A DNA stretch of 37,796 nt from Cryptosporangium minutisporangium. Lineage in GTDB: Bacteria > Actinomycetota > Actinomycetes > Mycobacteriales > Cryptosporangiaceae. The notes beneath the pieces were generated by a model that was not told the DNA's origin, ran no database searches, and saw only the letters and a program-made list of their open reading frames with translations. The DNA is taken from assembly GCF_039536245.1 (NCBI RefSeq), contig NZ_BAAAYN010000055.1, positions 1-37,796 on the forward strand, written 5' to 3'. Every line of letters starts with the position of its first letter. Within the stretch, counting starts at the first letter, position 1. A program made the position numbers and the translations under genes. This document shows, piece by piece, positions 1,206-37,796 of the stretch.

Positions 1206-1509
1206 CGGCTGAGCAGGCGCCAGGGCGCGCTCCGCCAGGCGTGTCCGAAACACGGGCACGACACCGTCAGGCGGCTGCCGATGGACGTGGGCACCGTCAT
1301 GGTGGCAACGGTGCAGAAGAGCACGGAGCCGGACGCTGAAGATGCGGGCGGCGTTGACCGGAGCACGTCCGGGAGCGGGCCGGGTGCCGGACGGCGAGGA
1401 CTGTTCACCGCCCGCCTCAGGAAGCCGGAAGGTCTTCGGGCGTGCCGTTTGCCGCATCGACGCCCGGGTAAGTGGCCGGGGTCCGAACCCATACCGCGAG
1501 GAGCGTCCC
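1206..1509 (+). other. Intergenic stretch before the Rieske oxidoreductase
   Basis: No supported gene lies here. Frames open on both strands are low-complexity and lack ribosome sites. It must contain the 3' end of the stress-protein transcript and possibly the promoter of the oxidoreductase. I saw no strong terminator hairpin, so read-through is possible. Confidence 0.4.
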
Positions 1510-3048
1510 GTGGCCGAATCGCCCACGCTGCCGGGTGCCGTCGAGTCGTACTGGATGGACAGCACCGAGGCGACCAGGTACCCGGCGCTGACCGCCGACC
1601 TCGAGGTCGACGTGGTCGTCGTCGGGGGCGGCATCGCCGGACTGTCCACCGCGTGGGAGCTGACCGAGGCCGGGCAGACCGTGGCGCTCGTGGAGGCGGA
1701 CCGGATCGCGGCGGGTGTCACCGGATACACGACGGCGAAGCTGTCGGTGCTGCACACCCTGATCTACGACAAGGTGCGCACCTCGTTCGGCGCGGACTCG
1801 GCGCGGCTCTACGCCGAGTCGCAGCAGCGAGCGGTGGAGCGGGTGGCCGCGGTGGCCGCAGGGCTCCGGATCGACTGTGATCTGGAGCGGGTTCCCGCGT
1901 TCACGTACGCCGAGTCGACCGACAACCTGGAGCAGCTCCACGCCGAGGCTCACGCCGCGGCGGACGCCGGCTTGGACGCCTCCTTCGTCACCGAGACCGG
2001 CCTGCCGTTCCCGGTCGCCGGCGCCGTCCGGGTCGAGGAGCAGGCGCAGTTCCACCCTCGCAAGTACCTGCTCGGCCTCGCTGACGACCTGACCCGCCGC
2101 GGCGGACAGATCTTCGAACGGACCTCGGCGACCGGCTTGGACGAAGGAAATCCGTGCGCCGTGACGACCGAGGCCGGGCACACGATCACCGCCCGGCACG
2201 TCGTGGTCGCCACCCACTACCCGGTCTTCGACCGAGCGCTGCTCTTCGCCCGCCTCGAACCACGACGCGAGCTGGTGGTCGCCGGCGCGATCTCTGCCGA
2301 CCGTGACCCCGGTGGCGTGTACCTCACCCCCGAGCAGAACACCCGATCGGTCCGTACCGCTCCGTACCGGGACGGGCAACGTCTGCTCATCGTCACCGGC
2401 GAGCATTTCACGCCGGGCGCGGGGGAGGTCACCGAGCAGTGGGAGACCCTCGCCGAGTGGACCCGGCAGCGCTTCCCCGGGACGCAGATCGCCTACCGCT
2501 GGGCAACGCAGGACAACACCAGTACCGATCAGGTGCCGTTCATCGGACGCTTCCATCCCGGCACCGACAAGGTCTGGGTCGCCACCGGCTTCGGCGGATG
2601 GGGGATGAGCAGCGGTGTCCTCGCGGGCCAGCTCCTCGCGGCTCGGATCACCGGATCCGAACCGCCCTGGGCCGACCTCTACGATCCCGGCCGGCTGAAT
2701 CTGGTGCGCGAGGCCGGCTCGATGCTGAAGCTCCAGGCCAAGGTGGCCGGCCACTTCGTCGGCGACCGGGTCCGCCCCTCCCACGTCGATTCGGTGGACG
2801 ACATCGAACCGGGCACCGGCGCCGTTGTCCGGGTACACGGGCGGCAATGCGCGGCCTACCGCGACGACACCGGTCAGCTCCACGCCGTGTCGGCACGGTG
2901 CACCCACCTCGGCTGCATCGTGCAGTTCAACGACGCCGAAACCGCGTGGGAATGTCCGTGCCACGGCTCCCGGTTCGGCATCGACGGTGCCGTCATCCAA
3001 GGTCCGGCCAACCAACCACTGCAACCGCAAGACGTCGCTGGCGGGTAG
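1510..3048 (+). CDS. FAD-dependent oxidoreductase with C-terminal Rieske [2Fe-2S] domain
   Basis: The 512-residue protein joins two redox modules. Residues about 33-380 form a DAO-type FAD domain with the dinucleotide loop GGGIAG at 39-44. Residues about 430-512 form a Rieske domain with CTHLGC at 464-469 and CPCHGS at 482-487. C464, H466, C482 and H485 would bind the cluster, and C469 with C484 would form the disulfide. The layout matches a known family of cytosolic FAD/Rieske proteins, such as Bacillus YhfW, whose substrate is not settled. The GTG at 1510 has an AGGAG site six bases away and gives a family-like N terminus; upstream extension lacks similarity. Electrons likely pass between FAD and the cluster within one chain. 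Confidence 0.9.
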   Translation: MAESPTLPGAVESYWMDSTEATRYPALTADLEVDVVVVGGGIAGLSTAWELTEAGQTVALVEADRIAAGVTGYTTAKLSVLHTLIYDKVRTSFGADSARLYAESQQRAVERVAAVAAGLRIDCDLERVPAFTYAESTDNLEQLHAEAHAAADAGLDASFVTETGLPFPVAGAVRVEEQAQFHPRKYLLGLADDLTRRGGQIFERTSATGLDEGNPCAVTTEAGHTITARHVVVATHYPVFDRALLFARLEPRRELVVAGAISADRDPGGVYLTPEQNTRSVRTAPYRDGQRLLIVTGEHFTPGAGEVTEQWETLAEWTRQRFPGTQIAYRWATQDNTSTDQVPFIGRFHPGTDKVWVATGFGGWGMSSGVLAGQLLAARITGSEPPWADLYDPGRLNLVREAGSMLKLQAKVAGHFVGDRVRPSHVDSVDDIEPGTGAVVRVHGRQCAAYRDDTGQLHAVSARCTHLGCIVQFNDAETAWECPCHGSRFGIDGAVIQGPANQPLQPQDVAGG

Positions 3049-3111: not shown

Positions 3112-4353
3112 TCAGGTCAGGCGGTCGGCTCGGTCGAGCAGATACCGCTGCTCGACGCGGTTGTCGGTCAGGGTTGCTGCCTCGCGGTAGAGGGTGGCCG
3201 CGCCGCGTCTGTCGCCGGTCATCTCCAGGAGGTGTGCCCGGACGGCGCGTTCGCGTTGGCGGGTCAGGGGCTCCTCGTCCAGTTGGTGGCGACGGTTGAG
3301 GTCGTCGAGGAGCGCCAGGCCGCGGGCCGCGCCGTAGGCGTTGGCGACGGCGACGACCCGGCTGAGTCGCACGGGCGCGGTGGGGCTGAGCCGTTCGAGC
3401 CACAGGTAGAGTGCCGCGATCTGCGGCCAGTCCGTTCGGTCGGTGGACGGGGCGGCGGCGTGCACGGCCGCGATCGCCGCCTGGAGCTGGTACGGGCCGA
3501 TCTCCCGCCGGATCCAGGCGCTGTCGATCAGTTGGGTGCCTTCGCGGATCAGGTCGGAGTTCCACCGATCCCGGTCCTGTTCGTCCAGCGGTATCAGCGC
3601 GTCGTCGGCGTTGGTGCGGGCGGCGCGCCGGGACTCGGTGAGTAGCATGAGCGCGAGCAGGCCGGCGACTTCGGGGTCGTCCGGAAGGGAGTCCCGGAGC
3701 ATGCGGGTGAGCCGGATCGCTTCGCGGGTCAGGTCGACGCGGGCGAGTTCGTCGCCGGCGGAGGCTGTGTAGCCCTCGTTGAAGATCAGGTAGAGCACCT
3801 GCATCACGGCGACGATCCGGTCCGCGCGATCAGCGTCGGTCGGCGGGGTGAAGCGCGCGCCGACGCGAGCCAGTTGCTGTTTGGCGCGGCTGATCCGCGT
3901 GCCCATGGTGGCCTCGACCGTGCCGTAGGCGTGCGCGATCTCGGCGGTGGTCAGACCACCGACGGCGCGCAGGGTGAGCGCCACCTGGGAGACGCTGCTC
4001 AGCGCGGGGTGGCAGCAGAGCAGTAGCAGCGTGAGGCTGTCGTCGGTCTCCGACGGCGGCTCAGCCCGGCGAGCCGGCTCCTGCATGGCCACGTCACCGA
4101 GCCCGACGTGCTGTTCGCGGCGGCGCCGGGCCTGGTCGGCGCGGAGGTGGTCGACCATCCTCCGGTAGCCGATTCGGATCAACCAGCTGCGCGGGTTCTC
4201 CGGGACGCCGTCGACGGGCCACGTGCGGCTCGCGGCGAGGAGTGCCTCCTGCACCGCGTCCTCCGCGAGGTCGAAGTGTCCGAAGCGGCGCACCAGTGCG
4301 CCGAGCACCTGCGGCGCCTCGATGCGCAGCAGGTGCTCGACGTCGGGGGTCAT
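3112..4353 (-). CDS. ECF42-type sigma factor with long C-terminal extension
   Basis: The 413-residue protein has sigma region 2 at about 8-80 (including DLAEDAVQEAL and the PENPRSWLIRIGYRR segment) and region 4 at about 107-160 (TTAEIAHAYGTVEATMGTRI). It then has about 240 residues with the LIFNEGYTAS motif of DUF6596 and helical repeats. This architecture, next to a DGPF/YCII gene, defines group ECF42. In this group the C-terminal extension is needed for activity and no classical anti-sigma factor is known. Its ATG overlaps the YCII stop as ATGA, so the two are coupled. Promoters matching the group's published consensus lie upstream of this operon and of the divergent gene, implying autoregulation. 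Confidence 0.93.
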   Translation of the reverse strand: MTPDVEHLLRIEAPQVLGALVRRFGHFDLAEDAVQEALLAASRTWPVDGVPENPRSWLIRIGYRRMVDHLRADQARRRREQHVGLGDVAMQEPARRAEPPSETDDSLTLLLLCCHPALSSVSQVALTLRAVGGLTTAEIAHAYGTVEATMGTRISRAKQQLARVGARFTPPTDADRADRIVAVMQVLYLIFNEGYTASAGDELARVDLTREAIRLTRMLRDSLPDDPEVAGLLALMLLTESRRAARTNADDALIPLDEQDRDRWNSDLIREGTQLIDSAWIRREIGPYQLQAAIAAVHAAAPSTDRTDWPQIAALYLWLERLSPTAPVRLSRVVAVANAYGAARGLALLDDLNRRHQLDEEPLTRQRERAVRAHLLEMTGDRRGAATLYREAATLTDNRVEQRYLLDRADRLT

Positions 4354-4721
4354 GCGGTGAAGTCCTCGCCCATGATCGGCCGGATCTCGATCGGCTCGCC
4401 CAGCACCTCGACGATCCGCGAGCCGATCTCGACGGCGCGTTCGTGGCTGGCCACATCAATCACGGCGAAGCTAGCCAGAACCTCCTTGAGCTCCGCGAAC
4501 GGCCCGTCGGTGGCCACCACACCGGCGGGCGTCCGGTGAATGGTCGTACTGACCGCGGGGTGGCCGAGGCCCTCGCTGGTGACTAACTCGCCGGTGGCGG
4601 TCAGTTCCTGCTCGAACTTCTGGTAGGCGGCGAACGCGGTCAGCGCCTCCGCGGACGGCGTGTCCGCGGTCGTGGCGTCCCAGGCGGCGGCCGGGGTGTA
4701 GCTGAGCAGCAAATACTTCAT
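4350..4721 (-). CDS. YCII/DGPF-family protein, ECF42 partner
   Basis: This 123-residue protein carries the signature DGPFAELKE in its second half and ends with EIRPIMGEDF, both typical of YCII-related DGPF proteins. Such genes almost always flank ECF42 sigma genes, and they are thought to be targets or modulators of the sigma factor. Whether they have an enzymatic role is not established. Two ATGs compete: the one at 4727 touches the GAGG ribosome site, while the one at 4721 sits six bases from it, so 4721 was chosen. The gene lies 44 bases after the DUF998 gene and overlaps the sigma gene by four bases. Confidence 0.92.
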   Translation of the reverse strand: MKYLLLSYTPAAAWDATTADTPSAEALTAFAAYQKFEQELTATGELVTSEGLGHPAVSTTIHRTPAGVVATDGPFAELKEVLASFAVIDVASHERAVEIGSRIVEVLGEPIEIRPIMGEDFTA

Positions 4722-4765: not shown

Positions 4766-5410
4766 CTACGCGGCGCGGCGCAGCCTCACCGCCAGAACGG
4801 TCGTCCAGGTGAAGGCGACCAGCCCGGTCGCGGCGATTTGCAGGCTCATTTGCTCGGGCGACATGGGCAGCAACAGGACGAGCGCCACCGCGCCGTTCGC
4901 CACGGCCGGCAATGCTGCCCGGCGGCGGATGTACCGGACGGTCAGCACGATGGCGGCGATGGCCACGGCCGTGAAGGCGACGGCGGCCGCGACCGAGTGC
5001 ACGACGCTGTGCCACGACATGTGGGCGACCGGTCCGTCGGGAGTGCCGACCGGGAAGCCGTACTCCGGATCCGCCGTGAACAGCCCCGCCGCGATGAGAC
5101 CGGCGCCGAAGATCCCGATGAGGATCGGCAGCGCGCGACGGCCCACCCCCTCGGTGAGCGTCCGTCGGACGCCTACGGCCAGCGCCAGCACGCCGACGCC
5201 GGCCGCCACGAACGTCGCCCTCTGGACCCAGCCGAGTTCGCCGGTGGCGAGCTGGCTGATCGGGTGGCGGGTGAGGTCGAATCCCTGCCGGGTCAGCATC
5301 TGGGCGATGGCGGAGGCGAAGAAGATCGGCCCGGCGAGAGCGCCGGCGAGTAGCAGACGTCCGGACGAGCGGTGAGTTGACGGGGCGGCGGGGATCGCGT
5401 AGGTGGCCAT
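4766..5410 (-). CDS. DUF998 family membrane protein
   Basis: The 214-residue protein has about six hydrophobic helices. The first, after SSGRLLLAGALAGPIFF, is followed by the DUF998 hallmark FDLTRHPISQLATGELGW. The later segment GTPDGPVAHMSWHSVVHSV is also typical. DUF998 proteins are integral membrane proteins of unknown function. The ATG at 5410 was preferred over 5422 because GGAG lies seven bases upstream. It is the first gene of the YCII-sigma operon and starts 31 bases downstream of a predicted ECF42 -10 element, so it is probably a direct sigma target. Confidence 0.88.
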   Translation of the reverse strand: MATYAIPAAPSTHRSSGRLLLAGALAGPIFFASAIAQMLTRQGFDLTRHPISQLATGELGWVQRATFVAAGVGVLALAVGVRRTLTEGVGRRALPILIGIFGAGLIAAGLFTADPEYGFPVGTPDGPVAHMSWHSVVHSVAAAVAFTAVAIAAIVLTVRYIRRRAALPAVANGAVALVLLLPMSPEQMSLQIAATGLVAFTWTTVLAVRLRRAA

Positions 5411-5441
5411 GACGGTCTCCATTCGGTGCCGTTGTTGCCGC

Positions 5442-5471
5442 TACCTCGGAGCTCGTCCGGGAAGTTCGACA
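5442..5471 (-). promoter_or_regulatory. Predicted ECF42 promoter for DUF998-YCII-sigma operon
   Basis: On the minus strand TGTCGAA (5471-5465) is followed by exactly 16 bases and CGAGGTA (5448-5442). This matches the ECF42 consensus as I recall it, with TGTCGA at -35 and CGA or CTC at -10. The -10 ends 31 bases before the ATG at 5410. Confidence 0.75.
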
Positions 5472-5506
5472 CCTGGCCGATGTGACGTAGACCACACAGG
5501 TTGGGC

Positions 5507-5535
5507 GTCGAAGCGCGGACGTCACCTCCGAGGTA
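5507..5535 (+). promoter_or_regulatory. Predicted ECF42 promoter for the DUF1579-like gene
   Basis: GTCGAA (5507-5512, preceded by C) is followed by exactly 16 bases and CGAGGTA (5529-5535). Elements and spacing match the opposite-strand promoter at 5442-5471, and both are followed by CGGCA after one variable base. The ATG at 5563 lies 27 bases downstream. Confidence 0.72.
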
Positions 5536-5562
5536 CCGGCAGCACTCACCGAGGAGGACAAC

Positions 5563-5988
5563 ATGATCGAGAACCCGCAGCCGAGCGTCGAACTGCAAGC
5601 GCTGGAACGACTCGTCGGCACCTGGAAGGTGACCGGCGGCGCCGAAGGAACCGTGCGATACGAGTGGATGCCCGGCCGGTTCTTCCTGCTGCAGCACGTC
5701 GATCTCACCCAGTTCGGCCAGCCGGTCACCGGCCTCGAGGTGATCGGCCACCTGCACCCGTTCGGCGAACCCGTCGGCGACGACGTGGTGTCGAGGTTCT
5801 ACGACGCGGTCGGCAACACCTTCGACTACGTCTACGAACTGAGCGCGGACACCCTCACTATCTGGGCGGGCGCAAAAGGTAGCCCGGCCTACTACCAGGG
5901 CACGTTCAGCGCCGACGGCAGCACGGTCACCGGTGCCTGGACCTACCCCGGAGGGGGAGGCTACGCGTCGACCATGACGCGGAACTGA
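5563..5988 (+). CDS. DUF1579-like small beta-barrel protein
   Basis: The 141-residue protein starts with a short helix and LERLVGTWKVTGGAEGTVRYEWMPG as a pattern (first half LERLVGTWKV, then EGTVRYEWMPG). It continues with alternating strands and ends TVTGAWTYPGG. This is the layout of DUF1579/lipocalin-like single-domain proteins, thought to bind small hydrophobic ligands; the ligand is unknown. The ATG has GAGGAGGA eight bases upstream. It is divergent from the ECF42 operon, carries the same predicted promoter, and is followed by a strong terminator, so it is a one-gene transcript. I infer it is an ECF42 effector. Confidence 0.82.
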   Translation: MIENPQPSVELQALERLVGTWKVTGGAEGTVRYEWMPGRFFLLQHVDLTQFGQPVTGLEVIGHLHPFGEPVGDDVVSRFYDAVGNTFDYVYELSADTLTIWAGAKGSPAYYQGTFSADGSTVTGAWTYPGGGGYASTMTRN

Positions 5989-37780: not shown

Positions 37781-37796
37781 CTAACGGTGTTTCTGG

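Follow-up and report, generated by a model that had tools for sequence, protein, structure and literature searches.

How an ECF42 sigma factor may be held in check is the question raised by a divergent gene pair of Cryptosporangium minutisporangium, as PMC6180224, in its passages on ECF42, describes a lack of identifiable anti-sigmas near ECF42 genes, and a 2022 review states, where it deals with the ECF42 extension, that the interaction partners of most of it are still to be identified (PMC8999054). The stretch of DNA that we analysed, called the window throughout, is contig NZ_BAAAYN010000055.1 from position 1 to position 37,796 (37,796 nucleotides). An earlier note on this DNA had described matched ECF42 promoters that point outward between the two genes. 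Our main news is the RsfG-like gene to the right of the promoter pair and the palindrome in the middle of the pair; the RsfG-like homology and the Crp-like palindrome were both missed by the earlier note. Taken together, we read the region as one that controls an ECF42 module conserved among actinobacteria, and we give the whole explanation developed below a probability of about 0.6.

The sigma factor of the leftward operon (Table 1) contains regions 2 and 4 followed by an extension of approximately 200 residues, and it adjoins a DGPF/YCII gene, a combination by which the ECF42 group is recognised; its Pfam matches, which come from sequence models only, include no TPR model. The genome contains 15 full-length ECF42-type genes including this one, and in the sigma tree the window sigma is placed inside a clade of RsfG-linked ECF42 factors (24 rows, which are 23 loci and the window; support 100/99). 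The gene starts at 5410 (minus strand) and 5563 (plus strand) are plausible, as GGAG-type ribosome sites can be seen by eye upstream of both. A gene for an FAD-dependent oxidoreductase with a C-terminal Rieske domain (1342-3048) faces the far end of this operon in convergent orientation.

Table 1. Features of the ECF42 locus in the window, with positions, strand and supporting evidence.
Feature	Positions	Strand	Evidence
ECF42-type sigma factor, 413 aa, long C-terminal extension	3112..4353	-	Pfam Sigma70_r2, Sigma70_r4_2 and DUF6596 above cut-off
DGPF/YCII-like protein	4350..4721	-	Pfam YCII, E 7e-10; stop codon overlaps sigma start codon (ATGA)
DUF998 protein, first gene of the operon	4766..5410	-	Pfam DUF998, E 6.5e-34, frame from 5422
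Predicted operon promoter	5436..5471	-	-35 TGTCGA 5466-5471, N17, -10 CGAGGTA 5442-5448, predicted start ~5436
Crp/GlxR-type palindrome TGTGACGTAGACCACA	5481..5496	.	9/10 matches to TGTGA-N6-TCACA, 9 bp from each -35 box
Predicted rsfG-like promoter	5506..5541	+	-35 CGTCGA 5506-5511, N17, -10 CGAGGTA 5529-5535, predicted start ~5541
RsfG-like protein, 141 aa, beta barrel; putative anti-sigma or ECF42 partner	5563..5988	+	phmmer to 7qh3 (RsfG), E 1.8e-58

The divergent genes are separated by two outward sites of the form YGTCGA-N17-CGAGGTA-n-CGGCA, with exactly the spacing and the variable base that had been described. The minus-strand site, read from 5471 down to 5436, has the letters TGTCGAACTTCCCGGACGAGCTCCGAGGTAGCGGCA, that is TGTCGA-N17-CGAGGTAgCGGCA, and the plus-strand site (5506-5541) has the letters CGTCGAAGCGCGGACGTCACCTCCGAGGTACCGGCA, that is CGTCGA-N17-CGAGGTAcCGGCA. 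When up to three mismatches were allowed, the window matched at these two sites only, and shuffled windows gave a mean of 0.04 matches (n=100) with no shuffle reaching two; a chance origin of the pair was ruled out by these shuffles, by simulated sequence and by the genome counts given below. ECF42 sigma factors use CGA or CTC at -10, and the TGTCG -35, the CG-type -10 and the N17 spacing by which ECF42 promoters are recognised are all found at the window locus. The promoters of the ECF42 factor RpoE10 of Sinorhizobium meliloti read TGTCGG-N17-CGTC according to Table 1 of PMC6180224, and since the window shares this N17 spacing, transcription starts are predicted near 5436 and 5541. As the earlier note had observed, the arms 5436-5451 and 5526-5541 form an inverted repeat with 15 of 16 matching positions. 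Although a repeat search of the window extends the arms to 19 nt with 89% complementarity, as would befit the operator palindrome of a repressor, we reject that reading as highly improbable, since the -35 boxes, always at N17, match the arms in conservation, the promoters of a close pair can be anywhere between 30 and 51 bp apart depending on the locus, and N17 is also reported for the S. meliloti ECF42 promoters in the part of PMC6180224 that describes them. The matched -35 boxes support the original claim of two outward ECF42-type promoters, and the pair very probably represents just that.

Conservation among relatives points in the same direction. A profile from seven RsfG-like proteins was searched against species genomes, which gave 166 relatives, and the best 80 were kept as loci; in 75 of these best 80 the rsfG-like gene and a DGPF-ECF42 operon diverge, a figure that describes the closer half of the relatives. 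The named loci of this divergent kind span 15 families, and DUF998 was recognised in 57 of the 75. The five exceptions are one locus at a contig end (L099), in which both promoters are still visible, one with the genes on the same strand (L109), and three Streptomyces contigs (L090, L103 and L111). With the promoter called by a fixed rule, for which the best match in the roughly 420 bp upstream was taken, the rsfG side has a promoter in 76/76 loci (the 75 divergent loci and the window), and the operon side in 72/76. Among the operon-side misses, L043 and L047 differ in one -35 base, L095 has its operon promoter about 1 kb off, beside its DUF998 gene, and in L115 no operon-side promoter was found. 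The best match scored at least 12/14 on 71/76 rsfG sides and 59/76 operon sides, compared with 0.2% for simulated sequence. A distance of exactly 34 bp separates the -35 boxes in 52 loci, counting the window, and in the 52 aligned loci the -35 and -10 columns are invariant and the spacers variable.

The genome scan that had been proposed for the motif (YGTCGAA-N16-CGAGGTA, in the 9.23-Mb genome of the organism itself) gave three matches, namely the window pair and C34:9757, and reversed-pattern controls gave none. As a third promoter, C34:9757 was discarded, because it lies antisense inside a frame that by eye is RidA-like and is probably a chance match. A search with YGTCRAR-N16-CGAGGTA in the genomes of 28 of the 80 loci gave 53 matches, with 37 in the module and 16 elsewhere, and all of these 16 start with C; the T-starting matches lie inside the module in 31/31 cases, a split by first letter that was made after the matches had been seen. 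One of the 28 genomes had no match at all and one had a match elsewhere only, and the reversed-pattern control gave 0-2 matches per genome. Close copies of the promoter site look confined to the module. Four ECF42 loci with a sigma factor about 58% identical (L202, L207, L210 and L212) have TGTCGA combined with a CGAC -10, and the CGAGGTA -10 may therefore be specific to the ECF42 subgroup of the window. The idea of a self-contained regulon holds for the close motif, but it does not reckon with 14 other full-length ECF42-type paralogues in the genome, one of which has the same promoter layout, and cross-talk among them may occur. As far as sequence can tell, the promoter pair is real, conserved and specific.

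Between the -35 boxes, column counts over 52 loci revealed a third conserved block with the consensus TGTGATCYRNRTCACA. Its counterpart in the window is centred at 5488.5, which is 52.5 bp from both predicted starts. In 58 of the 59 loci with a spacing of 33-35 bp, the block scores at least 8/10 to TGTGA-N6-TCACA, compared with 0.7% of shuffles, and exactly 9 bp flank it on each side in 52 of those loci; a palindrome that scores 8 is also present in two Micromonospora loci, whose spacing is 44 bp. This count dropped 7 of 81 rows (L090, L095, L103, L104, L109, L111 and L115), as they have no promoter pair less than 80 bp apart. A common inverted repeat in spacers of other lengths was considered and rejected, with 2/15 above the shuffled 95% level (L045 and L108). 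All loci that lack the palindrome fall into a single RsfG clade (with Agromyces, Microbacterium, Rhodococcus and Occultella among its members), in which it is absent, with scores of at most 6, from 14/14 loci with a close promoter pair and spacers of 30-51 bp. In this second clade, GAA/TTC tracts often take the place of the palindrome as judged by eye (L093, L096, L097, L100, L102, L105-L108, L110, L114, L116, L118 and L119), and the replacement sequence may be a site for the alpha subunit or for another regulator.

A TGTGA-N6-TCACA palindrome in the promoter region is the mark of Crp/GlxR regulons, and the window has one with 9/10 matches. Outside its central bases the palindrome is identical to the consensus of GlxR in the relevant part of PMC4254451. 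It also fits the motif GTG(N)6GNCAC given for Crp of Streptomyces coelicolor in the section of PMC10033298 that compares motifs, in which a different motif is derived for S. tsukubaensis. Over the genomes of 20 relatives, picked largely because their module carries the palindrome, TGTGA-N6-TCACA occurs 257 times versus 8 times for controls. When 394 genomes of the class were scanned for GTGA-N6-TCAC-N10-TGTCGA, with no protein as a guide, 11 matches turned up in 10 of them, with 3 for the control; six of the 11 lie in loci of this kind (L005, described below, included), and around the other five no such genes were found within about 4 kb. The genome of the organism itself encodes four proteins with a strong HTH_Crp_2 match, and one of them, the Crp/FNR-family protein L170, matches 3h3u, which we take to be the CRP of Mycobacterium tuberculosis, with E 3.8e-107 and the same residues throughout the DNA-recognition region. 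Another regulator could bind the palindrome, or the sequence could merely favour the RNA polymerase alpha subunit, and the presence of only two perfect TGTGA-N6-TCACA sites in the own genome, the choice among four HTH_Crp_2 proteins and the other sequences found at this position in the second clade would all agree with that. However, the fit to the GlxR consensus and to the S. coelicolor Crp motif and the genome-wide excess of the palindrome in the 20 relatives make such an explanation unlikely, and a Crp-type protein probably uses the central palindrome.

The gene to the right of the pair had been labelled DUF1579-like, a label that must be given up, as Pfam PF07617 reaches 12.8 bits against a cut-off of 25.2 and the protein is a homologue of RsfG. 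Among proteins of solved structure it is closest to RsfG of Streptomyces tsukubaensis (7qh3), with 66% identity, and the predicted model of the protein (mean pLDDT 93.4) finds as its best Foldseek match the same entry, titled 'anti-sigma factor RsfG' (E 4.3e-19, TM 0.91), followed by far weaker fold matches to spirocyclases (OlmO), nitrobindin and fatty-acid-binding proteins. Both sequence similarity and fold similarity, by which we define the RsfG family, are thus present. Two-hybrid and pull-down assays show that RsfG binds the ECF56 factor SigG1 (PMC7730460, section 7), and a higher level of sigG1 message is reported for an rsfG mutant.

In the RsfG tree, in which 13 rows belong to no group, the ECF42-linked genes form one clade of 83 rows with support 100/98, which takes in three Streptomyces strays, two hydrolase fusions and two ungrouped rows. 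In these fusions, which come from Microbacteriaceae-type loci, the RsfG domain is at the C-terminus of an alpha/beta hydrolase (L109, 5071-6420; L124, 5046-6311), and the fused genes are downstream of the DGPF-ECF42 operon on the same strand. The nearest rows outside the clade are RsfG itself, L123, L130 and L136, and the last three adjoin sigma genes with a SnoaL_2 extension. In a sample of 396 genomes, a sigma factor of at least 61% identity was found in five genomes, our own included, and an RsfG-like gene is beside the operon in 5/5; 11 other sample genomes have a sigma match at E 1e-115 or below, and of these G032 alone contains RsfG-like genes, which are on other contigs. Since the RsfG-like gene tracks the closest sigmas and its nearest tree rows are sigma-adjacent, a role as sigma partner is favoured. 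A signature of sigma-binding residues was also sought in RsfG and proved uninformative, as three residues are common to the ECF42-linked and SnoaL_2-linked proteins only. The earlier assignment of the gene to the ECF42 regulon agrees with its matched ECF42-type promoter, but it is incomplete, as an RsfG homologue may itself be a regulator.

The main alternative is that the RsfG-like barrel is an ECF42 output only, with a ligand-binding or enzymatic role beside DGPF and DUF998, and that the sigma factor is controlled via its C-terminal extension. The ECF42 regulon of S. meliloti has an operon for hydrophobic-ligand-binding and glyoxalase-like proteins (section 12 of PMC6180224), which suits an output role, as do the weak fold likeness to OlmO, nitrobindin and fatty-acid-binding proteins, the two hydrolase fusions, and 11 RsfG-like loci from other classes, several of them on short contigs, for which no sigma gene was found nearby. 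On the three Streptomyces contigs L090, L103 and L111, no ECF42 gene was found near the RsfG-like genes, and the other genes look plasmid-like by eye. Against a mere output stand the ECF sigma factor bound by the closest characterised relative (section 7 of PMC7730460) and the sigma genes next to the nearest rows outside the clade. We regard this alternative as a serious competitor whose chances fall somewhat short of even, and we see an even chance that the RsfG-like protein acts on the window ECF42 sigma.

Two related arrangements are of interest here. In the genome of the organism itself, an ECF42 paralogue (L005, G000:C11, 999-1092) has mirrored ECF42-like promoters and a perfect Crp-type palindrome, which is one of the two perfect sites of this genome; the promoters are again 34 bp apart with 9 bp on either side of the palindrome, and the opposite gene is MFS-like by eye. 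As L005 is outside the RsfG-linked sigma clade, the shared layout points to borrowing, to two separate origins, or to loss in the intervening lineages. The genome G722 has two partial, mutually complementary copies of the module (L227 and L240), with promoters kept in both. Copy one retains both promoters, the palindrome, the rsfG-like gene and the DGPF gene, and no sigma match was found in it, apart from what by eye is a short remnant; copy two, on another contig, has the sigma gene (79%), DUF998, a short DGPF match, the operon promoter and a partial palindrome upstream, and no rsfG-like match in the 6.5 kb taken. The two stretches would add up to one full set, as expected if the parts work in trans.

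We propose the following mechanism for the module, whose architecture, homologies and conservation can be read from the sequence itself. Judging by the conservation of the matched promoters, the ECF42 sigma factor would transcribe its own DUF998-DGPF-sigma operon leftward and the rsfG-like gene rightward. By analogy with RsfG and SigG1, the RsfG-like barrel would most likely bind the ECF42 factor, so that each burst of sigma activity would yield the sigma's own partner or brake, and a small ligand of the barrel may release the sigma factor. A Crp/GlxR-type dimer midway, equidistant from both starts, would couple both promoters to the cAMP or carbon status, either by activating or by blocking them. 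Transcription from the pair, RsfG-sigma binding and Crp binding are thus the steps that we infer. Autoregulation cannot be proven by a motif, because RpoE10 of S. meliloti did not raise its own operon despite the matching motif (section 12 of PMC6180224).

The window locus resembles the ECF42 systems of Streptomyces venezuelae and S. meliloti RpoE10, the latter as described in PMC6180224, in the long sigma extension and the DGPF/YCII neighbour, and also in the TGTCG-type -35 at N17 from the -10; these ECF42 factors control other small operons. In contrast to RpoE10, whose own operon was not raised, the window has matched promoters on both sides, a Crp-like site and an RsfG homologue, and this divergent homologue, if it acts on the sigma, would also set it apart from the usual ECF42 trait of having no nearby anti-sigma gene. 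With SigG1-RsfG of S. tsukubaensis (PMC7730460, in the parts on this pair) it shares the fold and the linkage to an extension-bearing ECF sigma gene. However, SigG1 belongs to a different sigma group and has a SnoaL_2 extension, whereas the window sigma is ECF42-type, and sigG1 and rsfG are co-transcribed, with an extra start of rsfG's own, whereas the window gene is divergent and has its own predicted ECF42-type promoter. As in actinobacterial Crp/GlxR regulons, there is a palindrome of the TGTGA-N6-TCACA type and a Crp/FNR-family orthologue in the genome; unlike in these regulons, the site is symmetric between two ECF-type promoters and centred at -52.5 for both predicted starts.

In its passages on RsfG, PMC7730460 treats ECF42 only as another extension-bearing group, and the literature passages on ECF42 covered here name no partner for it. 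We found no paper in the open-licence literature, as far as its text was covered, that connects ECF42 to either an RsfG homologue or Crp, and an earlier notice is possible. ECF42 factors are widespread. The RsfG-like protein, a conserved relative of an anti-sigma factor whose activity is proven, is encoded behind a matching promoter and is a concrete candidate for a partner. From the Crp-like site one would expect the module to react to cAMP status, and further modules could be recognised by the 34-bp layout. Tentatively, and with chances that we put only a little below even, a large ECF42 subgroup may be under a ligand-sensing, soluble anti-sigma of the RsfG family whose gene the sigma factor itself transcribes from a promoter that mirrors its own, and a single Crp dimer may gate transcription both ways. 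If this is true, the RsfG-like protein would be the first protein partner for ECF42, and the module would link ECF42 stress genes with cAMP signalling.
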